DNA of 64,000 bases, from assembly GCF_002564025.1 (NCBI RefSeq), contig NZ_PDJH01000001.1, forward strand, positions 2,790,001 through 2,854,000. The letters are read 5' to 3'. The notes below the pieces were generated by a model. That model worked only from the letters and a program-made list of their open reading frames with translations, ran no database searches and was not told where the DNA came from. Position numbers and translations under genes: made by a program. The DNA is from Flavimobilis soli. Lineage in GTDB: Bacteria; Actinomycetota; Actinomycetes; Actinomycetales; Cellulomonadaceae. Below, in pieces: positions 30,959 to 41,187 of this stretch (positions are counted from its first letter, which is position 1; each line of letters starts with the position of its first letter).

Positions 30959-30972
30959 GGTACCATGGTCCT
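30959..30972. promoter_or_regulatory. Possible operator immediately upstream of the response regulator
   Basis: GGTACCATGGTCCT is an imperfect inverted repeat with core ACCATGGT, ending at the base before the regulator's ATG. It matches 10 of 14 positions of the central part of the mycobacterial DosR box and shares the CC-(A/T)(A/T)-GG centre with the better site upstream of cydA. It could mark autoregulation, but chance similarity is quite possible. Confidence 0.3.
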
Positions 30973-31644
30973 ATGCGAGCGACCAACGCCACTGAGCCGA
31001 GCGCCGGACCGATCACCGTCATGATCGTCGACGACCACGAGGTCGTGCGACGCGGCATCGCCGAGGTCGTCGACCGGTCCGAAGGGCTCAGCGTCGTCGC
31101 TGAGGCCGGCTCGGTCGCCGAGGGCCAGCGCCGCGCGGCGCTCGTCCAGCCCCAGGTGATCCTCGTCGACCTGCAGCTCCCCGACGGCACGGGCATCGAC
31201 CTGATCCGTCGCCTGGCCGCGGCGGGCTCGACCGCCCGCCCGATCGTGCTCACGTCGTTCGACGACGACCGCGCTCTCGCCGAGGCGCTCGACGCCGGTG
31301 CGGCCGCCTACCTCCTCAAGAGCGTGCGCGGCGCGGAGATCTCCGACGTCATCCACGCCGTCGCCGCGGGCCGCGTCCTGCTCGACGAGCGCACCGTCAC
31401 GCGGCGCCGTGCCGAGCACGAGGACCCGACCGCGGACCTCACGCCGAGCGAGCTGCGCGTCGTCGACCTCATCGGCGAGGGCCTGTCCAACCGCGAGATC
31501 GCGGAGCGCCTCTCCGTCGCCGAGAAGACGGTCAAGAACCACATCACGTCGCTCCTCGCGAAGATGGGGCTCCAGCGCCGCACCCAGGTCGCCGCGTGGG
31601 CCGCAGGCCGCAAGAACCGCGAGTGGTCGACCGACCCGCACTGA
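30973..31644 (+). CDS. NarL/DosR-like response regulator
   Basis: A 223-residue two-component regulator. The receiver domain has the acidic pocket IVDDHEVV, the phospho-acceptor Asp66 in ILVDLQLPDG, the switch Thr/Ser in IVLTSFDDD and Lys in AYLLKSV. The LuxR-type HTH near residues 155-215 contains LTPSELRVVDLIGEGLSN and VAEKTVKNHITSLLAKMG. The latter strongly resembles mycobacterial DosR/DevR (AEKTVKN, LLAKLG, ERRTQ). No kinase gene adjoins it, but a DosS-like kinase lies 1.6 kb away on the other strand, beyond an M20 peptidase gene, and is its likely partner. Confidence 0.85.
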   Translation: MRATNATEPSAGPITVMIVDDHEVVRRGIAEVVDRSEGLSVVAEAGSVAEGQRRAALVQPQVILVDLQLPDGTGIDLIRRLAAAGSTARPIVLTSFDDDRALAEALDAGAAAYLLKSVRGAEISDVIHAVAAGRVLLDERTVTRRRAEHEDPTADLTPSELRVVDLIGEGLSNREIAERLSVAEKTVKNHITSLLAKMGLQRRTQVAAWAAGRKNREWSTDPH

Positions 31645-31719
31645 CAGACCAGCACCGACCGGTCCGCGCCCGGTCTGCCGGGCGCTGACACGCACCCAGC
31701 ACGACGAGAGGCACGACCC

Positions 31720-33141
31720 GTGAGCGACTCCACGCCCGACCAGACCAGCACCACGTCTCAGGGCGGGGACGTCGCACGGCTGCGCACCGCCGTCGAGCGC
31801 CACATGCCGCGCGGTCTCGCCGACCTCGCCGAGCTCGTCGCGATCCCGTCGATCGCCGACCCGCAGGTCGTGCCGCCCGAGCGCTGCACCGAGGCCGCGC
31901 TGTGGGTGCGTGACGCGCTGCGCGACCTCGGCATCGACTCCGAGCTCGTGCCGACGCCGGACGGCACCGACGCGGTCATCGGCTACCGCGAGGGCCCTGC
32001 GGGCTCGCCGACCGTCCTCCTCTACGCGCACTACGACGTCCAGCCACCCCTCGACGAGGCCGCGTGGACCACGCCGCCCTTCGAGCTGACCGAGCGCGGC
32101 GGCCGTCTCTACGGGCGCGGTGCGGCGGACTGCAAGGGGAACATCGTCGCCCACCTCACCGCCCTGCGTGCCCTGCGCGACGAGGCCGAGGCAGCCGGCA
32201 CGGACGGCTACCCGGTCACTTTGCGCGTCGTCGTCGAGGGGTCCGAGGAGCAGGGGACGGGCGGACTCGAGCAGTACCTGCTCGCGCACCCCGACGAGCT
32301 CCCGGCCGACGTCGTCCTTGTCGCCGACGCGGGCAACGTCGCCGAGGGCGTCCCGACGCTCACGACGTCGCTGCGGGGCTCCGCCGACATCGACGTCGAG
32401 GTCCGCACGCTCGCGGGACCGCTCCACTCAGGTCAGTACGGCGGCGCCGCACCCGACCCGCTCGGCGCCCTCATCGCGATGCTCGCGAGCCTGCGCGACG
32501 GCGACGGCGTCGTCACGGTCGACGGCCTCGACGCGAGCGGCACGTGGGACGGCGCGCAGTACGACCCCGAGACGTTCCGCAAGGACGCGAGCATCCTCGA
32601 CGGTGTCGAGATCACGGGCCGCGGCACCGTGAGCGACACCCTGTGGGCGCGGCCTGCCCTCACCGTCACGGGCATCGACGGCCCGCGCGTCGTCGGCGCG
32701 GTCAACGCGGTCCAGGCGAGCGCCCGTGCCCACCTGAACCTCCGCGTCCCGCCGGGCACCGACCCGGCCGAGGCGCAGGACCTCCTCGTCGCGCACCTCG
32801 AGCGGCGCGTGCCGTGGGGCGCCCACCTGAAGATCGACCGCGACGCTCCCGGCAAGCCGTTCAGCGCCCGCACCGACGGCCCCGCGTTCGCGGTGCTCGG
32901 CCGGGCGCTCGCCGATGCGTTCGGCGTCGACTCGACGGTCACCGCGGGCGAGGGCGGGTCCATCCCGCTGTGCTCGGTGTTCCAGGAGGTCAACCCCGAC
33001 GCGGAGATCGTGCTCATGGGCTGCGAGGAGCCTGCTGCGCTCATCCACGCGCCCAACGAGAGCGTGTCCCCGCACGAGATCGAGAAGCTGGCCCTCGGCG
33101 AGGCGCTCTTCCTCACGCGACTCGGCGCCGCGACCGCCTGA
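31720..33141 (+). CDS. M20 family dipeptidase
   Basis: A 473-residue zinc aminopeptidase/dipeptidase with no signal peptide, so cytoplasmic. Metal ligands can be assigned: His in LYAHYDVQP, bridging Asp in GRGAADCKGN, catalytic Glu pair in VEGSEEQG, Asp in LVADAGNV, and His in ALIHAPNES. The lid/dimerisation domain with HSGQYGG lies in between. It cleaves dipeptides or similar amides; the substrate is unknown. A GTG start is used. It lies between the response regulator and its likely kinase without an obvious functional link. Confidence 0.9.
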   Translation: MSDSTPDQTSTTSQGGDVARLRTAVERHMPRGLADLAELVAIPSIADPQVVPPERCTEAALWVRDALRDLGIDSELVPTPDGTDAVIGYREGPAGSPTVLLYAHYDVQPPLDEAAWTTPPFELTERGGRLYGRGAADCKGNIVAHLTALRALRDEAEAAGTDGYPVTLRVVVEGSEEQGTGGLEQYLLAHPDELPADVVLVADAGNVAEGVPTLTTSLRGSADIDVEVRTLAGPLHSGQYGGAAPDPLGALIAMLASLRDGDGVVTVDGLDASGTWDGAQYDPETFRKDASILDGVEITGRGTVSDTLWARPALTVTGIDGPRVVGAVNAVQASARAHLNLRVPPGTDPAEAQDLLVAHLERRVPWGAHLKIDRDAPGKPFSARTDGPAFAVLGRALADAFGVDSTVTAGEGGSIPLCSVFQEVNPDAEIVLMGCEEPAALIHAPNESVSPHEIEKLALGEALFLTRLGAATA

Positions 33142-33170
33142 GCCGGGCTGGCCGCGAGGCCTGGAGCCGC

Positions 33171-33206
33171 GGTGCTGGAGCGCCCACGGGCGCTCCAGCG
33201 TGCACC
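33171..33206. terminator. Hairpin between convergent M20 peptidase and kinase genes
   Basis: CTGGAGCGCC (33175-33184) pairs with GGCGCTCCAG (33189-33198), with further flanking pairs. There is no U-run on either strand. Position between two convergent genes supports bidirectional termination. Confidence 0.65.
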
Positions 33207-33210
33207 AGGA

Positions 33211-34917
33211 TCAGCCGAGCGGCGCCTGCCAGCGGATGACGGCGCCCTGACCCTCCGGGTTCGGCATGAGCTCGAACGTCCCGCCGTGCTGGCGGGCACG
33301 CGCCGCGAGGTTGCCCGTGCCCGAGCGGCGCCCGGACACCGAACCGAGGCCCACGCCGTCGTCGGTGACCGTCACGCACACCTCGCCGGGCAGGATCACG
33401 CCCGGCAGGGCGTCAGGGCGCGTGCTCGTGACGTCGATGCTCACCTGGACCGACGACGCGTGCGCGTGCCGGGCGGCGTTCGCGAGGCCCTCGCGCACGA
33501 CCGCGACGACGTCGTCCGCGAGACCGTCGGCCACGAGGTCGTCGATCACGTCCTCGTCGACCTGCAGCCCCTCGGTGTTCTCCGAGCCGATGACGTGGCC
33601 GTCGAGCGTGATGACCATCGAGGGCGCGAAGCTCAGGCCCGTGCGAGCGAGCGACGCCTCGCGTCGCAGACGCTCCACGACGCTCGTCGCTGCGTCCGGG
33701 TCGCGCAGCGCGTGCACGATCGCGCGGATCTGGCGCACGGTCGAGTCGACGTTGTCGAGCGCCTCCTCGACGATGCTCACGAGCTCGCTCGGGTCGACGC
33801 CGCGCGCGGCGCGTCGGCGCACCGTCTCGAGCTGCATGCCGGTCGCGAAGAGCTGCTGGATCGCGAGGTCGTGCAGGTCGCGTGCGATGCGGTCGCGCTC
33901 GCCCGCGAGCTCCGCCTCTGCCTGCGCCTGGCGCGCCGACGCGAGGATCATCGCGATCGCGGCCTGACCCGCGAAGGTCTCGGCGGTCGCCAGGTCGGAC
34001 TCGTCGAACGGCTCAGCACCCGGCTGGCGGAGCAGCACGAGCACGCCCACAGGGTCCTCGACGGTGCCCATCGGCGCGTAGAGCGCGGGGCCGAAGCGCC
34101 GCATGACGGGCACACGGATACCCGGCGCGGTCGACAGGTCGAGCAGCGTGCCCCACCCGGACGCGAGCGCCGTCCCCGCGACGCCGTCGGCCGGCACCTC
34201 CGTGCCGATGATGTCCTGCGCCGACCAGCCCTCGGCGAACTCGATGAACAACCGGCCGCGCACGCCCGGGAGGATCAGCGCCGCCGTGTCCGCCCCCGAG
34301 ATGTACCGCGACGTCGAGACGATCTCCTGGAGGACCTCCTCCTCGTCCTTCTCTCCCGACAGAAGCAGCGTCGTCAGCTCCTGGCCCGCGCGCAGCCAGC
34401 GCTCACGGCGCGCCGCGAGGTCGTACAGCTGCGCGTTCTCGACCGCGACGCTCGCCGCGGCGGCGAGCGCCATGACGATCCGCGAGTCCTCCTCTGTGAA
34501 GCCGCCGGGCTTCTCCGCGAGGTAGAGGTGCCCATAGACGGAGTCCTGGACGCGGATCGCCGCACCGAGGAACTGGTGCATCGGCGGGTGCCCGGGCGGG
34601 AAACCCTTGAACGCCGGGTCCTTCATGAGGTCGAACAGGACGAGCGTGCCGCGCGACGGGATCGTCGCGAGAACGCCGTGGTGGCCAGGCGGGTGCTCGA
34701 GCTGCGCCGCGGTGCGCTCGTCGACGCCGACCTGGACGAACGTCGTCGACTTGTCGTTCTTGTCGGTGACGTTGATCGCCGCGTAGGGCGCGCCCGTGAG
34801 GCGCGAGCACGTCTCGACGAACGTCTGGAGCACGTCGGGCAGCTCGAGGTTGGCCGCGAGGGCCAGGACCGCGTCGAGCAGCTCCTGCTCGGTGCGGCGC
34901 GGGTCGGTGAAGCTCAT
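33211..34917 (-). CDS. DosS-like GAF-domain sensor histidine kinase
   Basis: A 568-residue soluble kinase with no membrane segment. Two GAF domains (about residues 20-165 and 185-330) are followed by a HisKA_3 dimerisation domain with the phospho-acceptor His349 in ARDLHDLAIQQLF, and by an HATPase_c domain whose N-box is EGLANAARHAHA. GAF-1 contains FPPGHPPMHQFLG, matching the region that carries the heme-ligating His149 of mycobacterial DosS; His110 is the candidate ligand here. The ATG overlaps the cydC stop (ATGA), so the kinase is translated with the cytochrome bd assembly transporter. The partner is probably the DosR-like regulator at 30973. Oxygen, NO, CO or redox sensing is inferred, not shown. 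Confidence 0.83.
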   Translation of the reverse strand: MSFTDPRRTEQELLDAVLALAANLELPDVLQTFVETCSRLTGAPYAAINVTDKNDKSTTFVQVGVDERTAAQLEHPPGHHGVLATIPSRGTLVLFDLMKDPAFKGFPPGHPPMHQFLGAAIRVQDSVYGHLYLAEKPGGFTEEDSRIVMALAAAASVAVENAQLYDLAARRERWLRAGQELTTLLLSGEKDEEEVLQEIVSTSRYISGADTAALILPGVRGRLFIEFAEGWSAQDIIGTEVPADGVAGTALASGWGTLLDLSTAPGIRVPVMRRFGPALYAPMGTVEDPVGVLVLLRQPGAEPFDESDLATAETFAGQAAIAMILASARQAQAEAELAGERDRIARDLHDLAIQQLFATGMQLETVRRRAARGVDPSELVSIVEEALDNVDSTVRQIRAIVHALRDPDAATSVVERLRREASLARTGLSFAPSMVITLDGHVIGSENTEGLQVDEDVIDDLVADGLADDVVAVVREGLANAARHAHASSVQVSIDVTSTRPDALPGVILPGEVCVTVTDDGVGLGSVSGRRSGTGNLAARARQHGGTFELMPNPEGQGAVIRWQAPLG

Positions 34918-36695
34918 GCGGTGGGGCTCCCGTGCTCCGGGGCGGGCCGCGCGGCGGCCTGCTCGTGGTCGTAGGCCCCACGGTACGCAGGATCGTGGCT
35001 CAGGAGGTATTCGTGCGTGCCGCGTCGGGCGACGTGCGCGACGCCGTCGTCACGCCGCTCGAGGACGAGCACCTCGTCGGCGGCTTCGAGCCCGGAGAGG
35101 CGGTGCGTTGCGAGGATGACGCCGCGGCCGTCGGCGACGAGCCGGGGAAGGACCTCGGCGAAAAGGGAGCGTGCCGCGTCGTCGTCCATGTGCTCGGCAG
35201 GCTCGTCGACCGCGACGAGCGGTGCCCGGGTGAGCAGGGCGCGGGCGAGGAGCAGACGGCGTCGCTCGCCGCCCGAGACCGTGGCCCCGCCGGGGCCGAG
35301 GTCGGTGTCGAGACCGTCGGGCAGGCCGGAGAGCCACGTGTCGAGGCCGACGGCCTCGAGCGCCTCTCGCGCCTCGTCGGGGGTGACGTCGCCGCGGGCG
35401 ACGCGCAGGTTCTCGAGGAGCGTCGTGCGGAAGACGTGCGCGTCCTCGGGGGTGACGGCGACGTCCGCGCGCCGGGTCGTCAGGTCGCCGGCGTGCGGCG
35501 GGAGCAGGCCGGCGAGCGTGAGGAGCGTCGTCGTCTTGCCGGCGCCGCTCGGGCCGACGAGCGCGACGAGGCGGCCGGGGGAGAGGTCGACGTCGAGACC
35601 GCCGAGGACCGGGGCGTGCCCCGGCCAGCCGGCGGTGACGCCCTTCGCGCGGATGTGGGCGGGGCCGTCGGCCGGTGCCTCGACGGCCGCGTCGAGCGCG
35701 TCCGCCGCGGGGGCGTCGGCTGCGCCGTCGAGCAGCTCGAGGACGCGCGCGGCTGCCTCGCGCGACCGCAGCACCTGCACGGCGGCCGCGGGCAGGACGC
35801 TCGTCGCCTCGAACATCGCGAGAGGGGAGAGGACGACGACGGCGAGCTCGACGGGCGCGAGGGTGCCGGCGCCGACGGCGGGAATGCCGAGCAGGATCGC
35901 GCCGAGCACCGCGACGCCGACGGCGGCGTTCGCGAGCGCTGCGCTCGTCGCGAGCGGTCGCGCGCCGTGGTCGACGGCGTCCGCGAGGTCGTCCTCCGCG
36001 GCCTGCAGCCGCGCGAGCTGTGCGGGGAGCTGGCCCGAGACGCGCAGGGCTGCGGAGTCCTCGAGGACGGTGAGCGCGGCGTCGGACATCTCGGCGCGCG
36101 CCGCCGCGGACGCGATCTCGGTCGCGCGCGTCGCGCGGGCCGTGAGCCAGGGCGAGAGCACGCCTGCGACGAGGAGGCACACGAGCAGCACGACGGCGGC
36201 CGACGGCAGGAACGCCGCGACGAGCGCGACGGACCCGACGCCGAGGACCGCGGCGACGCCCGCGGGCACGAGTGCTCGCACGACGACGTCGCCGACCGCG
36301 TCGACGTCCGCGCCGACGCGCGCGAGCAGGTCGCCGCGGCGCAGCGCCGCGACCGCGTCGAGGCGGCCGGCGGCCAGGCGCTCGTACACGGTCGTGCGGA
36401 GGTTGGCCATGCCGCGCAGCGCGACCTCGTGCGACGCGAGCCGCTCGAGGTACCGGAACACGCCGCGCGAGATGCCGAACGCGCGCACGGAGACGGTCGC
36501 GACCGACAGCGTCAGGACGGGTGGCATCTGCGACGCGCGCGCGATGAGCCATGCCGAGACGGCGGCGAGGGCGATGGCCGAGCCGAGGGCGAGGCTGCCG
36601 AGCAGCACGGCGCTGACGACGCGGCGGCGGTCGACGTCGAGCAGCGCGATCGCGCGGCGCAGCACGTCGTCACGGGCGGGTGCGGGCGTGCTCAT
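34914..36695 (-). CDS. cydC: Thiol reductant ABC exporter subunit CydC
   Basis: A 593-residue fused membrane-ATPase half transporter. Six hydrophobic segments occupy residues about 30-310, including LASHEVALRGMANLR. The ATPase has Walker A VGPSGAGKTTTLL and signature TVSGGERRRLLLARAL. The Walker B/D-loop reads LVAVDEPAEHMDDDA, where most family members have LLDEPTAHLD, an unusual set of changes. With CydD it exports glutathione, cysteine or equivalent thiols needed to mature cytochrome bd. The start overlaps the cydD stop; the stop overlaps the kinase start. Confidence 0.9.
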   Translation of the reverse strand: MSTPAPARDDVLRRAIALLDVDRRRVVSAVLLGSLALGSAIALAAVSAWLIARASQMPPVLTLSVATVSVRAFGISRGVFRYLERLASHEVALRGMANLRTTVYERLAAGRLDAVAALRRGDLLARVGADVDAVGDVVVRALVPAGVAAVLGVGSVALVAAFLPSAAVVLLVCLLVAGVLSPWLTARATRATEIASAAARAEMSDAALTVLEDSAALRVSGQLPAQLARLQAAEDDLADAVDHGARPLATSAALANAAVGVAVLGAILLGIPAVGAGTLAPVELAVVVLSPLAMFEATSVLPAAAVQVLRSREAAARVLELLDGAADAPAADALDAAVEAPADGPAHIRAKGVTAGWPGHAPVLGGLDVDLSPGRLVALVGPSGAGKTTTLLTLAGLLPPHAGDLTTRRADVAVTPEDAHVFRTTLLENLRVARGDVTPDEAREALEAVGLDTWLSGLPDGLDTDLGPGGATVSGGERRRLLLARALLTRAPLVAVDEPAEHMDDDAARSLFAEVLPRLVADGRGVILATHRLSGLEAADEVLVLERRDDGVAHVARRGTHEYLLSHDPAYRGAYDHEQAAARPAPEHGSPTA

Positions 36696-38452
36696 CGGGT
36701 CACCTCCGCGCCGGTGTCGTCGACCGCGTCCGCTGCGGGGTCGAGCGCTCGGGCGCTGACCTCGACGACGTCGTCGGCGAGCTCGACGAGCGCTGCGCGG
36801 TGTGCGACGACGAGCACGGCGCGCCCTGCGGCGCGCATCGTGGCGACGGCGTCGAGCACCTGCTGCTCGGACAGCGCGTCGAGGTGGGCGGTCGGCTCGT
36901 CGAGGACGACGAGCGGCTTGGCGGTGACGAGGGCGCGCGTGAGGACGACACGCTGGCGCTGGCCGAGGCTCAGACCCACCCCGCCGGTGCCGACGCGCGT
37001 GGCCCAGCCCGCGGGGAGAGACTCGACGACGCGGTCGAGGCCGGTGAGGCGGGCGGCGTCGAGCACCTCGGGGGAGGGCGCGTGCTCCGCGGAGGTGTCC
37101 TCGGTTGGACCAGTCGTGCCGCGGACGGCGTCGAGGACGGTCCCGGGCGTGAGGACGGCGCGCTGCGGCACCCAGGCGACCTGGCGGTGCCACGCGGCGA
37201 GGTCGAGGTCGTCGAGCGAGGTCTCGGACACCTGGCCGCCCGGGTCGGCCGTGCGGACGGCGATGGTCCCGGCGTCGACGGGCTCGAGGCCGAGGAGCGC
37301 GAGGACCGCGGTCGACTTCCCGGCCCCGTTGGGGCCGACGAGCGCGACGACGCGACCGGGCGCGACGTCGAGGTCGAGGCTGTCGGGCGCGACGACGTCG
37401 CGCCCCGGCGCCCGCACGCTCACACCGGTGAGACGGACGCCTGCGAACGTGCCGCCGTCGAACGGGTCAGCGGCGCCCGGGTGCTCCGGCCGCGCCTCGG
37501 GGGACTCGATGACGGCGAATGCGGCGTCGGCGGCCGCGAGGCCGTCGGTCGACGCGTGGAAGTGCAGGCCCACCTGCCGCAGCGGCAGGAACACCTCGGG
37601 TGCGAGCACGATGACGACGAGGCCCGTCTGCAGGTCGAAGCCGCCGGAGACGAGGCGCAGGCCGACCGAGACGGCGACGACCGCGACGCACAGCGTCGTC
37701 AGCAGCTCGAGGACCATCCCCGACAGGAACGCGACGCGCAGCGTGCCCATCGTCGCGCGGCGGTGCGCGTCGCCGAGCGCGCGGACGCGGGCGGCCGGGC
37801 CCTTCTCGCGGCCGAGCGCGCGCAGCGTCGGCAGGCCCGCGACGAGGTCGAGGACCTGAGAGCCGAGCCGCTGCATCGTTGCGAGGCGCCGGTCGGAGAC
37901 GCCTTGCGTGAGCTGGCCGACGAGGGTCATGAAGATCGGCACGAGCGGGATCGTCGCGAGGATGATCACGCCCGCCACCCAGTCGTGCCACCAGACGACG
38001 GCGAGCGTCGCTGGCGTGAGCGTCGCCGCGAGCAGCAGCTGGGGGAGGTAGCGCACGAAGTACGGCTCGAGGTCCTCGAGCCCGCGCGTCGCGAGCGTGA
38101 CGGTCGCGGGACCTTCGCCGCCCGCGAGCCAGCGCGGCCCGCGCGCGACGGCGGCGGTGACGACCTGGCGGCGCAGGTCGATGATCGTGCGCGTCGCGGC
38201 GCGGTGCGCGAACCGCTCCTGCAGGTGCACGACGCCGGCGCGCACCGTGACGACCGCGGCGAGCCACGCGACGAGGTGCCACGCGTCCGCGAGCGGACGC
38301 GCGTCCGACACGGCAGGCGCGAGGATCGCGGCGACCAGGATCGCCTGGGCGACGACGAGCCCCGTCGTGGCGACGCCCGTCGCCGCCGTCAGCAGTACGT
38401 AGCGTCGGGCGGGACGGGCGTGCCGGAGGAGTCGAGGGTCGAGGGGCTTCAC
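36692..38452 (-). CDS. cydD: Thiol reductant ABC exporter subunit CydD
   Basis: A 586-residue half transporter partnering CydC. The transmembrane domain has ARGPRWLAGGEGPATVTLATRG, here marked by RWLAGGEG and VTLATRGLEDLEPY, the typical CydD extracytoplasmic/coupling region. ATPase motifs are Walker A LVGPNGAGKSTAVLAL, signature VGLSLGQRQRVVLTRAL and Walker B LVVLDEPTAHLDALS. LSLGQ instead of LSGGQ is notable. Begins 13 bp after cydB and overlaps cydC by 4 bp, so all belong to the cyd operon. Confidence 0.9.
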   Translation of the reverse strand: MKPLDPRLLRHARPARRYVLLTAATGVATTGLVVAQAILVAAILAPAVSDARPLADAWHLVAWLAAVVTVRAGVVHLQERFAHRAATRTIIDLRRQVVTAAVARGPRWLAGGEGPATVTLATRGLEDLEPYFVRYLPQLLLAATLTPATLAVVWWHDWVAGVIILATIPLVPIFMTLVGQLTQGVSDRRLATMQRLGSQVLDLVAGLPTLRALGREKGPAARVRALGDAHRRATMGTLRVAFLSGMVLELLTTLCVAVVAVSVGLRLVSGGFDLQTGLVVIVLAPEVFLPLRQVGLHFHASTDGLAAADAAFAVIESPEARPEHPGAADPFDGGTFAGVRLTGVSVRAPGRDVVAPDSLDLDVAPGRVVALVGPNGAGKSTAVLALLGLEPVDAGTIAVRTADPGGQVSETSLDDLDLAAWHRQVAWVPQRAVLTPGTVLDAVRGTTGPTEDTSAEHAPSPEVLDAARLTGLDRVVESLPAGWATRVGTGGVGLSLGQRQRVVLTRALVTAKPLVVLDEPTAHLDALSEQQVLDAVATMRAAGRAVLVVAHRAALVELADDVVEVSARALDPAADAVDDTGAEVTR

Positions 38453-38465
38453 AAGGTCGATCGAA

Positions 38466-39503
38466 TCACGCGGACGTGAGGTCGTCCGTCTTCTTGAGCG
38501 ACAGACCGATCGGCTCGGGGATGTGGGCGACCGTGATGCGCTTCTTGAACACCCAGTACGTCCAGCTCTGGTAGAGCAGGACGACCGGCACGAGCGCGAC
38601 GGCGACCCAGGTCATCACGGTGAGCGTGTAGTCCGTCGAGCTCGCGTTGCGGATGTTGAGCGAGTTCGCCGGGTCGATCGCGGGCATGACGTCGGGGTAC
38701 ATCGAGCCGAAGATCAGCACGACGGCCGCGACGATGCCGAGCGCCGAGAAGATGAACGCCCAGCCCTCGCGGTCCTTGGCGACCATGACGACGACGAGCA
38801 CGAGGCTCACGGCAGCGACGAGGACGGCGGCCCAGGTCCACGCGACCGAGTAGGCGAGCTGCGCCCAGACCGCCCACAGGCCGGCGGCGACGGTCGTGCC
38901 GGTCGAGAGCTTCAGGCCGAGGGCGCGAGCGCGGGTGCGGATGTCACCGTCGGTCTTGAGCGCGAGGAACACTGCGCCGTGCGTGAGGAACAGGCCGAGC
39001 GTCACGGCACCGCCGAGGAGGGCGAACGGGCTCAGCAGCGAGAAGAACCCGCCGGTGAACGTGTGCGACGCGTCGAGCTCGACGCCGCGGACCAGGTTGG
39101 CGAACGCGACGCCCCACAGGATCGCGGGCAGCCACGAGCCCACGATGATGCCGCGGTCGCACCAGGCTGCCCAGCGCGGGTCGGAGATCTTGCCGCGGTA
39201 CTCGAAGGAGACGCCGCGGACGATGAGCGCGAGCAGGATCAGCAGCAGCGGCAGGTAGAACCCGGAGAAGAGGGTCGCGTACCACTCGGGGAACGCGGCG
39301 AACGTCGCGCCGCCTGCCGTGAGCAGCCACACCTCGTTGCCGTCCCAGACGGGCCCGATGGTGTTGATGATCGCGCGGCGGTCCTTGTCCTTGCGGCCGA
39401 GGACGGGCAGGAGCATGCCCACGCCAAAGTCGAATCCCTCGAGGACGAGGTAGCCGGCCCACAGGACGGCGATGAGGATGAACCAGAGGACGGGGAGGTC
39501 CAT
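38466..39503 (-). CDS. cydB: Cytochrome bd quinol oxidase subunit II
   Basis: A 345-residue integral membrane protein with eight to nine hydrophobic segments. The first, MDLPVLWFILIAVLWAGY, leads into LEGFDFGVGMLLP, a CydB hallmark. GPVWDGNEVWLLTAGGATFAAFP is also conserved, here quoted as WDGNEVWLL and AAFPEWYATLFSGFYLPL. It forms the quinol-oxidising, oxygen-reducing heterodimer with CydA in the cytoplasmic membrane. It lies 30 bp after cydA. Complete. Confidence 0.95.
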   Translation of the reverse strand: MDLPVLWFILIAVLWAGYLVLEGFDFGVGMLLPVLGRKDKDRRAIINTIGPVWDGNEVWLLTAGGATFAAFPEWYATLFSGFYLPLLLILLALIVRGVSFEYRGKISDPRWAAWCDRGIIVGSWLPAILWGVAFANLVRGVELDASHTFTGGFFSLLSPFALLGGAVTLGLFLTHGAVFLALKTDGDIRTRARALGLKLSTGTTVAAGLWAVWAQLAYSVAWTWAAVLVAAVSLVLVVVMVAKDREGWAFIFSALGIVAAVVLIFGSMYPDVMPAIDPANSLNIRNASSTDYTLTVMTWVAVALVPVVLLYQSWTYWVFKKRITVAHIPEPIGLSLKKTDDLTSA

Positions 39504-39533
39504 GATCGCTTCTTCTCTCGTTTCTCGGTCGGC

Positions 39534-41075
39534 TCAGTAGGCGAAGGACAGCGGGGCGTCCTCGTCCTTGTCGGGGTTCGCCTCGGGCGACTCGTCGTGG
39601 ACCTCGGTCGGGACGCCCTCGATCGCGTAGCGGTGCATGAGCTTGCCCCAGACGACGGCGAGGGCGCCGTAGACGAGGGTGAAGGCCACGAGCGAGGTGA
39701 TGACCGAGCCGGAGCCGACGGCGGTCGAGACGCCGCGCCACGTCATCATCCAGACGCCGTCGACGCCGCTCGGGTTCGGGTTGGGGTACACGACCCAGGG
39801 CTGGCGGCCCATCTCGGTGAAGATCCAGCCGAACGCGGAGGCGAGGAACGGCGCCGGGATGGCGACGAGAGCGATGCGCTTGATCCACCTCGAGTCGCTG
39901 ACGCCGCCCTTGCGGGTGACCCAGAGGCCGCCGAGCGCGAGAGCTGCGGAGAAGATGCCGAAGCCGATCATCAGGCGGAAGGACCAGTAGGTGACCGCGA
40001 GGTTCGGGATGTAGCTGAGCTCCTGGTCGGCGGTGCCGTCCGTGGGGGCGTCGACGCCGACGATCTCGGAGTGCTCGCCGCGGGTCGCGCCGAACTTCTG
40101 GGTCATCTCGTCCTGGATCTGGATCGTGCCCTTGATCTCGGCGTCGAACGTGTTCGTCGCGAGGAACGAGGTGAGGTTGGGCAGCGCGATGAGGTGGCGG
40201 ACGCTCTCGCAGTCGCCGTTGAGGTTGCCGATCGTCAGGATCGAGAAGTCGGCGCCCTGCTCCGTGTGGCACAGGCCCTCGGCCGCGGCCATCTTGGCGG
40301 GCTGCTGCTCGAACATGAGCTGCGCCTGCCAGTGGCCGGTGAAGGCGACGCCCACACCGGCGACGAGCATGACCCACATGCCCAGGCGCAGGCCCGAGCG
40401 GTAGACCGTCTTGGCGAGGGTGACGTTCTCGGCCTTCTTGGAGCGGACGAGGCGGACCATCCACCAGGCGCTGATCGCAGCGACGAACGTGCCGGCCGTG
40501 ACGAACGCGGCGGTGATCGTGTGCGGGAACGCGGCGAGCACCGTGTTGTTGGTGAGCACGGCCCAGATGTCGACGAGCTCGGCGCGGCCGGTCTCCTCGT
40601 TGAAGATCGCACCGACGGGGTGCTGCATCCACGAGTTGGCCGCGAGGATGAAGTACGCGGAGAGGTTGGTCGCGAGGGCGACGGCCCAGATGCACGCGAG
40701 GTGGATCTTCTTGGGCAGGCGACCCCACCCGAAGATCCACAGACCGAGGAACGTCGACTCGATGAAGAAGGCGGCGAGCGCCTCCATCGCGAGCGGCGCG
40801 CCGAAGACGTCACCGACGAAGCGCGAGTACTCGCTCCAGTTCATGCCGAACTGGAACTCCTGGACGATGCCCGTCACGACACCGATCGCGAAGTTGATGA
40901 GCAGCAGCTTGCCGAAGAACTTCGTGAGCTTGAGCCACTTCTCGTCCCCGGTCCTGACCCACGCGGTCTGGAGGCCGGCCACGAGCGGCGACAGGCCGAT
41001 CGTGAGCGGGACGAAGATGAAGTGGTAGACGGTCGTGATGCCGAACTGCCATCTGCCGAGGTCGAGTACGTCCAC
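39534..41075 (-). CDS. cydA: Cytochrome bd quinol oxidase subunit I
   Basis: A 513-residue integral membrane subunit carrying the three hemes. The N-terminal LGRWQFGITTVYHFIFVPLTIGL is cut here to RWQFGITTVYHF, with His18 equivalent to the high-spin heme ligand. Other conserved elements are VQEFQFGMNWSEYSRFVGD, AFPHTITAAF and GRQPWVVYPN. The GTG at 41075 is chosen because it matches family N-termini and has AAGGAAG just upstream; an in-frame ATG at 41138 coincides with the predicted transcription start. It is the first gene of cydABDC-kinase, high-affinity respiration for low oxygen or respiratory stress. Confidence 0.95.
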   Translation of the reverse strand: MDVLDLGRWQFGITTVYHFIFVPLTIGLSPLVAGLQTAWVRTGDEKWLKLTKFFGKLLLINFAIGVVTGIVQEFQFGMNWSEYSRFVGDVFGAPLAMEALAAFFIESTFLGLWIFGWGRLPKKIHLACIWAVALATNLSAYFILAANSWMQHPVGAIFNEETGRAELVDIWAVLTNNTVLAAFPHTITAAFVTAGTFVAAISAWWMVRLVRSKKAENVTLAKTVYRSGLRLGMWVMLVAGVGVAFTGHWQAQLMFEQQPAKMAAAEGLCHTEQGADFSILTIGNLNGDCESVRHLIALPNLTSFLATNTFDAEIKGTIQIQDEMTQKFGATRGEHSEIVGVDAPTDGTADQELSYIPNLAVTYWSFRLMIGFGIFSAALALGGLWVTRKGGVSDSRWIKRIALVAIPAPFLASAFGWIFTEMGRQPWVVYPNPNPSGVDGVWMMTWRGVSTAVGSGSVITSLVAFTLVYGALAVVWGKLMHRYAIEGVPTEVHDESPEANPDKDEDAPLSFAY

Positions 41076-41142
41076 TGGTCTTCCTTGGTCCGGTTCCGGT
41101 TGCGCAGGCAGCCATGAGGTGACGCGCTGTCGTGTCATGTCG

Positions 41143-41148
41143 AACCTA
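41143..41148 (-). promoter_or_regulatory. Candidate -10 element of the cyd operon
   Basis: On the minus strand TAGGTT fits the TANNNT pattern and would start transcription near 41136, leaving a leader of about 60 nt before the GTG of cydA. No good -35 hexamer is present, which fits an activator-dependent promoter. Confidence 0.4.
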
Positions 41149-41167
41149 GGACCTCGGTACTAGGAGG

Positions 41168-41187
41168 CCCGGGACCAAGGTCCCGAA
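41168..41187. promoter_or_regulatory. DosR-box-like palindrome upstream of cydA
   Basis: Read on the minus strand the site is TTCGGGACCTTGGTCCCGGG. It matches 16 of 20 positions of the mycobacterial DosR/DevR consensus TTSGGGACTWWAGTCCCSAA, including both GGGAC/GTCCC half-sites. Its centre is about 41 bp upstream of the transcription start predicted from the -10 element, the usual place for an activator touching RNA polymerase. A degenerate second inverted repeat (41145-41164) lies 23 bp closer to cydA. Confidence 0.6.

Follow-up and report, generated by a model that had tools for sequence, protein, structure and literature searches.

DosRS systems are, to our knowledge, known almost only as a mycobacterial dormancy switch. 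Here we describe a related pair in a 64,000-nucleotide stretch of the Flavimobilis soli genome (contig NZ_PDJH01000001.1, positions 2,790,001 to 2,854,000; hereafter the window), where a DosS-like sensor kinase is encoded as the last gene of the cydABDC operon and the gene for a DosR-like regulator lies nearby. The source genome is a single 2.89-Mb contig of Micrococcales lineage. Comparison with related genomes suggests, with a probability of about 0.7, that the pair is wired to the terminal oxidases, where it would activate the bd oxidase (cydABDC-kinase) and repress the aa3 oxidase (ctaC).

Several described systems are comparable. The pair resembles DosS-DosT/DosR (DevS/DevR) in its GAF-GAF-kinase layout with a heme-ligand histidine (PMC4082495) and in its DosR-like regulator, and its predicted activator site overlaps the −35 element, as at DosR promoters (PMC3029386). 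Unlike in mycobacterial DosRS, the kinase sits inside the cyd operon and the box lies at cydA, and the box mostly has C-G, rather than T-A, as its inner base pair. In Mycobacterium smegmatis, cydAB falls outside the 49-gene DevR regulon, and a mutant lacking devR reportedly induced cydA under hypoxia to a similar degree (data not shown there), with Crp1 named as the inducer (PMC7739888). Since cydA is reported there as DevR-independent, the wiring of the present locus differs from that in mycobacteria.

Outside the mycobacteria, OsdK/OsdR of Streptomyces coelicolor is a DosRS-type pair with a palindromic site and a role in hypoxia and stress; its consensus, AGGGCCGATCGGCCCT, is different, and the words 'cyd' and 'cytochrome' are absent from the main text of that report (PMC5069765). 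HrrSA of Corynebacterium glutamicum provides two-component control over both terminal oxidase branches, but is heme-responsive and activates both (ctaE and cydAB), and 'GAF' is absent from the text of that report (PMC7337898). Two-way control of the kind predicted here is described for ArcBA of Escherichia coli, in which ArcA represses cyo and activates cydAB (PMC4182436). In the part of the open-access literature covered, outside which most subscription journals lie, we found no description of a kinase within a cyd operon or of a DosR-type exchange between aa3 and bd oxidases. The protein families also set the present system apart from ArcBA: here a GAF-GAF-HisKA_3 kinase is paired with a regulator of the LuxR helix–turn–helix type, whereas ArcB is a membrane hybrid kinase.

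The kinase closes the cydABDC operon

The main features of the locus are listed below.

41171..41184 (20-mer 41168-41187), no strand: DosR-type box GGGACCAAGGTCCC, 10/10 core positions, at about −42 from the predicted transcription start site (TSS)
41143..41148, minus strand: TAGGTT, a predicted −10 element that follows the box after 22 nt
39534..41075, minus strand: cydA (PF01654, 6.2e-162); likely start GTG 41075 (inferred), longest open reading frame from ATG 41138
38466..39503, minus strand: cydB (TIGR00203)
36692..38452, minus strand: cydD (TIGR02857, 8.4e-166)
34914..36695, minus strand: cydC (TIGR02868 CydC, 1.6e-167); probable start ATG 36695, which overlaps the stop of cydD
34914..34917, minus strand: 4-bp ATGA overlap of the kinase start (ATG) and the cydC stop (TGA)
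33211..34917, minus strand: DosS-like sensor kinase, last gene of the cyd operon, 568 amino acids, GAF/GAF/HisKA_3/HATPase_c
30973..31644, plus strand: DosR-like NarL-family response regulator, 223 amino acids, Pfam Response_reg and GerE

Pfam and NCBIfam confirm the identities of cydA, cydB, cydD and cydC, which together with the sensor kinase form a single tight minus-strand unit. A predicted ATGA overlap joins cydD to cydC, and a second one, at 34914-34917, joins cydC to the kinase; the original prediction that the kinase overlaps the cydC stop as the final cydABDC gene is thus borne out. It had also placed a DosR-like regulator 1.6 kb away. The closest solved structure to this regulator is DevR (3c3w, 1.1e-49, 172 bits; the next scores 128 bits), and its gene is convergent with that of the kinase at a distance of about 1.57 kb. 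The recognition helix EKTVKNH is unchanged in 17/17 aligned orthologues (five outgroup regulators were left out of the alignment), and the residues of its KTVKN core presumably touch DNA.

Kinase, regulator and cydA are linked across the order

A common set of 101 family genomes was searched for kinase, regulator and CydA, and one best match of each was kept per genome. Best kinase identities step from at least 53% down to at most 43% over the full length (shorter matches reach 50%), and best regulator identities from at least 69% to at most 50%; the same 50/101 genomes lie above the step for both proteins. In 44/101 genomes, hereafter called linked, the kinase shares its strand with cydA and follows it by 4.5-5.3 kb, and the regulator is convergent in all 42 linked loci with both genes on one contig (distance 12 bp to 4.8 kb). 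A scan of the source genome itself, in which 13 of 20 candidates were scored, gave one kinase match at E ≤ 1e-20. Six genomes (G013, G047, G050, G053, G063 and G098) have a second kinase of 51-54% identity, which was left out; in G063, two tandem DosS-like kinases precede one regulator away from cydA (L155, 4570-7933).

The order-level comparison covered 122 genomes outside the family with a kinase match, with families numbered and all linkage figures read as lower bounds. A search for the same kinase-cyd linkage in other Micrococcales had been proposed as a check, and the arrangement recurs in at least 59/122 genomes from six other families: f9 (23/23), f13 (at least 16/22), f3 (at least 13/23), f20 (at least 3/14), f15 (at least 3/11) and f12 (at least 1/2), with 0/27 among the matches listed for the remaining families.

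The cydA box occupies a predicted activator position

The cydA box is a perfect GGGACC-WW-GGTCCC palindrome and the sole site with a 10/10 core within the window. We take it to lie near the DosR consensus, and counting by reading against that consensus gives the 16 of 20 matches originally reported. Its position relative to cydA had to be corrected. GTG 41075, with its Shine-Dalgarno-like AAGGAAG leader, is probably the true cydA start instead of ATG 41138, and the predicted −10 element at 41143-41148 implies a TSS near 41136. The predicted TSS would then follow the centre of the box by about 42 bp and the likely start codon by about 102 bp, in place of the earlier distance of about 41 bp to the start.

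Among the 44 linked family upstreams, 42 carry at least 9/10 core positions of GGGAC-N4-GTCCC, and G055 and G020 carry 8. A TANNNT element follows the box after 22, 23 or 24 nt in 43/44, the spacing class seen in the window. In a joint test that combined a core of at least 8/10 with TANNNT at 21-25 nt, 43/44 linked genomes pass (G020 fails), as do 4/57 unlinked ones (G001, G022, G047 and G063), all four of which possess the pair. Sorted by the pair, the result is 47/50 with it and 0/51 without it (Fisher 1e-25, relatedness ignored); shuffled upstreams show the geometry in 72/14100 cases. A spacing of 21-25 nt puts the box centre near −42, in place of the −35 element, and at DevR-activated promoters the site proximal to the transcription start likewise overlaps −35 (PMC3029386). 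Outside the family, 36 of the at least 59 linked genomes were sampled, and 26/36 show the cydA geometry (f13 13/13, f9 6/8, f3 3/9, f20 2/2, f15 1/3, f12 1/1), as does 1/4 unlinked (G122).

Other elements accompany some of these boxes. A GAC-N5-GTC inverted repeat begins 16-19 nt 5′ of the box in 20/44 linked cydA upstreams when inspected by eye (e.g., L020, L024, L031 and L039), and the strict form TGAC-N5-GTCA lies within 45 nt of the box in 9/44; it may be a second site for the regulator or the operator of another factor. In genera g8 (L099, L112, L117 and L081) and g24 (L075, L086, L095, L103, L110 and L115) and in G011 (L070), a DosR-type box lies just 5′ of a palindrome resembling the Rex motif, TTGTGA-N6-TCACAA, and cydA may there be under both DosR-type and Rex-like control. 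Rex control of the cydA of the window was not retained as an explanation, this palindrome being visible by eye in the printed upstreams of these genomes and not in those of linked genomes.

The ctaC box lies just downstream of a predicted −10 element

In all six genomes of the genus, a box also precedes ctaC, with a predicted −10 element TAGGCT 16 nt upstream of it, which places the box at about +4 to +17. Repressors commonly act from a site just after the −10. This pattern prompted a test, with a window of 14-20 nt, in 27 linked and 3 unlinked family genomes from other genera, of which the 27 linked genomes form the independent part. All 27 have a ctaC box 15-19 nt after the start of a TANNNT element, which brings the linked family genomes to 33/33 tested (33 of 44 examined); shuffles give 87/11400. 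Outside the genus, the box is mostly AGGACGAAGGTCCC (or AGGACGAAGGTCCC/T) or AGGACGAAGGTCCT, with 8-10/10 core positions. The repressor-type arrangement occurs at family cydA in 0/101 genomes, and the activator-type arrangement at ctaC in 0/57 across family and order. At the order level, ctaC was sought in 30 genomes, two of which (G192 and G114) gave no ctaC match.

Box sites beyond the oxidase genes

In the source genome, RGGACYWWRGTCCY occurs 7 times and the reversed pattern once. A single segment, repeated at the contig ends, accounts for three of the 7, which leaves five distinct sites, at ctaC, nrdI, acs, cydA and a VKOR-family gene; genes at box sites were named from family searches of one or a few representatives and otherwise by likeness of sequences. 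The VKOR-family gene with its box occurs three times in total at the two contig ends (16755, 2880174 and 2883984; L007 and L018), partly inverted, which looks like an assembly duplication that inflates the site counts. Allowing at most one mismatch, GGGACYWWRGTCCC has 16 sites against 2 reversed, with further sites beside other genes. The bare core GGGAC-N2-8-GTCCC gives 64 against 23, and its spacer of 4 is not above the estimated GC expectation; since GC content may explain them, bare-core counts were set aside as evidence and the WW-centred pattern was used.

With this pattern, sites outnumber reversed controls by 168 to 25 in the 50 genomes with the pair and by 78 to 7 in genera g8, g24 and g12 (14 genomes), against 45 to 41 in the other 37 family genomes, which lack a related pair. 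Matching kinases of g8 and g12 align at GAF-1 and the kinase part, and those of g24 at GAF-1. Of these 14 genomes, 11 have a cydA box with 9-10 core positions and an A/T centre, without the −10 spacing of linked genomes.

Within the genus, a box also precedes acs in 5/6 genomes and class III ribonucleotide reductase genes in G045, G025, G061 and G086. The nrdD boxes of G045 and G025 have the cydA-type spacing (22 nt), the other four examined do not, and all five acs boxes have a −10-like element 12-18 nt upstream (by eye). Near the box-bearing class III ribonucleotide reductase genes lie repeats ACTAGATGTAGT resembling the NrdR motif (L140, L144, L147, L125 and L132). No dormancy genes (universal stress proteins, alpha-crystallin) were recognised beside those source-genome sites that were inspected, for the most part by eye; the site at 2688708 and the majority of flanking genes are unannotated, and upstreams of such genes were not searched.

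These sites also qualify the self-contained oxygen, NO or redox switch of the original prediction. Its wiring of kinase, regulator and cydA site is supported by the linkage, the co-occurrence and the conserved activator geometry, while its heme, oxygen or NO input is a putative one. The term 'self-contained' proved too narrow, as in the genus the box is also found at ctaC, acs and ribonucleotide reductase genes, and the regulator is a separate convergent gene.

GAF-1 of the kinase resembles the DosS heme domain

The closest named relatives of the kinase are from Sanguibacter hominis (95%) and Flavimobilis rhizosphaerae (79%). Among solved structures, its best matches are the GAF-A domains together with the ATPase domains of DosS/DosT, and GAF-1 is closest to DosS/DosT GAF-A (1.9e-26, residues 25-168, by sequence comparison). 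The segment FPPGHPPMHQFLG, noticed earlier as similar to the heme-ligand region of DosS, spans residues 106-118, and alignment upholds this likeness: His110 aligns with the proximal heme ligand His149 of DosS, and Tyr132 with the distal Tyr171 (roles of the DosS residues as in PMC4082495). The proximal histidine is present in 32/33 full-length kinases examined (kinases of G001, G005 and G022 not counted), the exception being G020, and Tyr132 is invariant in 27/27 aligned kinases. In the lineage of the window, the signal is most likely a heme-bound gas or the heme redox state, read by the putative heme domain GAF-1 through His110.

Fourteen linked kinases start directly after the position of GAF-1 and thus do without it. 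In a tree of the kinase part, from which G012 was excluded for its split frame, the other 13 form one clade adjoining the genus of the window (support 100/99), so a single loss event suffices. The cydA arrangement is intact in 14/14 of these genomes, and the ctaC arrangement in all 11 of the 14 that were tested. These kinases are either constitutive or use another input. The kinase frame of G012 (L021) consists of two overlapping pieces, owing to a frameshift or a sequencing error. In G185, G250 and G355 (family f13, genus g72; the cydA upstreams of the first two are L218 and L219), the match of the cyd-linked kinase begins at query residue 143-148, which may reflect a second loss of GAF-1.

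Neighbouring features

Two further features lie around the regulator gene.

31720..33141, plus strand: M20 peptidase between regulator and kinase (family searches)
30959..30972, no strand: degenerate box GGTACCATGGTCCT, 8/10 core, abutting the regulator start

The regulator-kinase gap is a few hundred bp or less in most other genera, and the peptidase is probably a bystander. A near-box similar to GGTACCATGGTCCT occurs in 4/6 genomes of the genus (G000, G025, G045 and G075), so that autoregulation of the regulator is possible in part of the genus only; as a general feature it was rejected, the near-box not being general among the 42 loci scanned.

Weighing the alternatives

The comparisons establish an anatomy in which cydABDC closes with the kinase gene, the regulator is adjacent or near and convergent, the GGGACCWWGGTCCC box stands at the predicted −35 place of cydA, and, in this family, a variant box follows the predicted −10 of ctaC. 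Several points weigh against reading this anatomy as a two-way oxidase switch. The genomes are related, so the counts overstate independence, and the TSS and −10 calls are consensus matches. At cydA, G005 and G076 have the pair and fail the joint test, G047 passes weakly (8/10 core, at −198), 10/36 sampled linked promoters outside the family lack the geometry, and g8, g24 and G011 have a cydA box with neither an orthologous pair nor the geometry; the repressor-type arrangement appears there in 2/36 linked genomes outside the family (G348 and G196, the latter also of activator type). The ctaC geometry is also found in 1/3 unlinked family genomes (G058), and outside the family it occurs in 1/23 linked and 0/4 unlinked genomes with a ctaC match. 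In the kinase, the distal network residues Glu87 and His89 of DosS are not kept (Asn49 and Thr51), for which reason we file it as DosS-like rather than as an orthologue with DosS chemistry. To these come the 14 kinases without GAF-1, and G020, whose full-length kinase alone lacks the GAF-1 histidine and which is also the sole linked genome to fail the cydA test, with a poor box.

The scarcity of the ctaC geometry outside the family, set beside order-wide conservation at cydA and the few exact sites per genome, would suit a plain cyd-specific activator that controls only the bd operon and its own kinase, with the ctaC, acs and nrd sites secondary or non-functional. We consider this unlikely, as the ctaC box keeps a near-fixed −10 spacing in every linked family genome tested and the nrdD box has activator spacing in two genomes. 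HrrA of C. glutamicum offers a precedent for control of both oxidases in the same direction (PMC7337898), and the mostly variant ctaC boxes of other genera might even be bound by another protein; the variants nonetheless retain their core throughout the linked family genomes tested. Together with their place just after −10, where repressors commonly bind, this makes either version improbable. Harder to set aside, if still doubtful, is a kinase input unrelated to heme ligands or redox, through GAF-2 or a small molecule, with His110 a structural relic: one clade (13 tree rows) has dispensed with GAF-1 while its wiring stayed intact, and the Glu87/His89 positions differ, but His110 and Tyr132 are conserved almost throughout the full-length kinases, and the only kinase to lose the histidine sits with a poor cydA box. 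That palindrome and linkage are an accident of a GC-rich genome has next to nothing in its favour; exact bare-core sites with spacer 4 are about as frequent as GC content predicts (an estimate), but conservation, spacing and the shuffle and reversed-pattern controls all contradict it.

A predicted switch between aa3 and bd oxidases

Under the favoured reading, a two-way oxidase switch, low oxygen, NO or a reduced respiratory chain would lead the kinase to phosphorylate the regulator, and the phosphorylated regulator, bound at −42, would activate cydABDC-kinase. The kinase gene, at the end of this operon, would be activated along with the rest, so that the system would amplify its own sensor. 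From its position at the transcription start, the phosphorylated regulator would repress ctaC and, in the genus, also acs, such that the aa3 oxidase would be exchanged for the bd oxidase while the kinase is on. In the sister lineage without GAF-1, the signal would enter elsewhere, for example through GAF-2.

In evolutionary terms, it seems somewhat better than an even bet that a regulator of the DosR family has turned into a two-way oxidase switch of the ArcA kind, with one type of box activating bd and repressing aa3. To the cyd half, which is found in seven of the order's families, the aa3 half would have been added in or close to one of these, and later one lineage would have lost the putative heme domain, exchanging the input and keeping the output. 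In much of an order, parts related to the mycobacterial dormancy switch seem to govern which terminal oxidase is used. The system offers non-pathogenic hosts in which to ask what a DosS-like kinase senses, how box position sets activation or repression, and how a circuit survives the loss of its sensor domain, and the function of GAF-1 can be tested on the 14 natural kinases that lack it.

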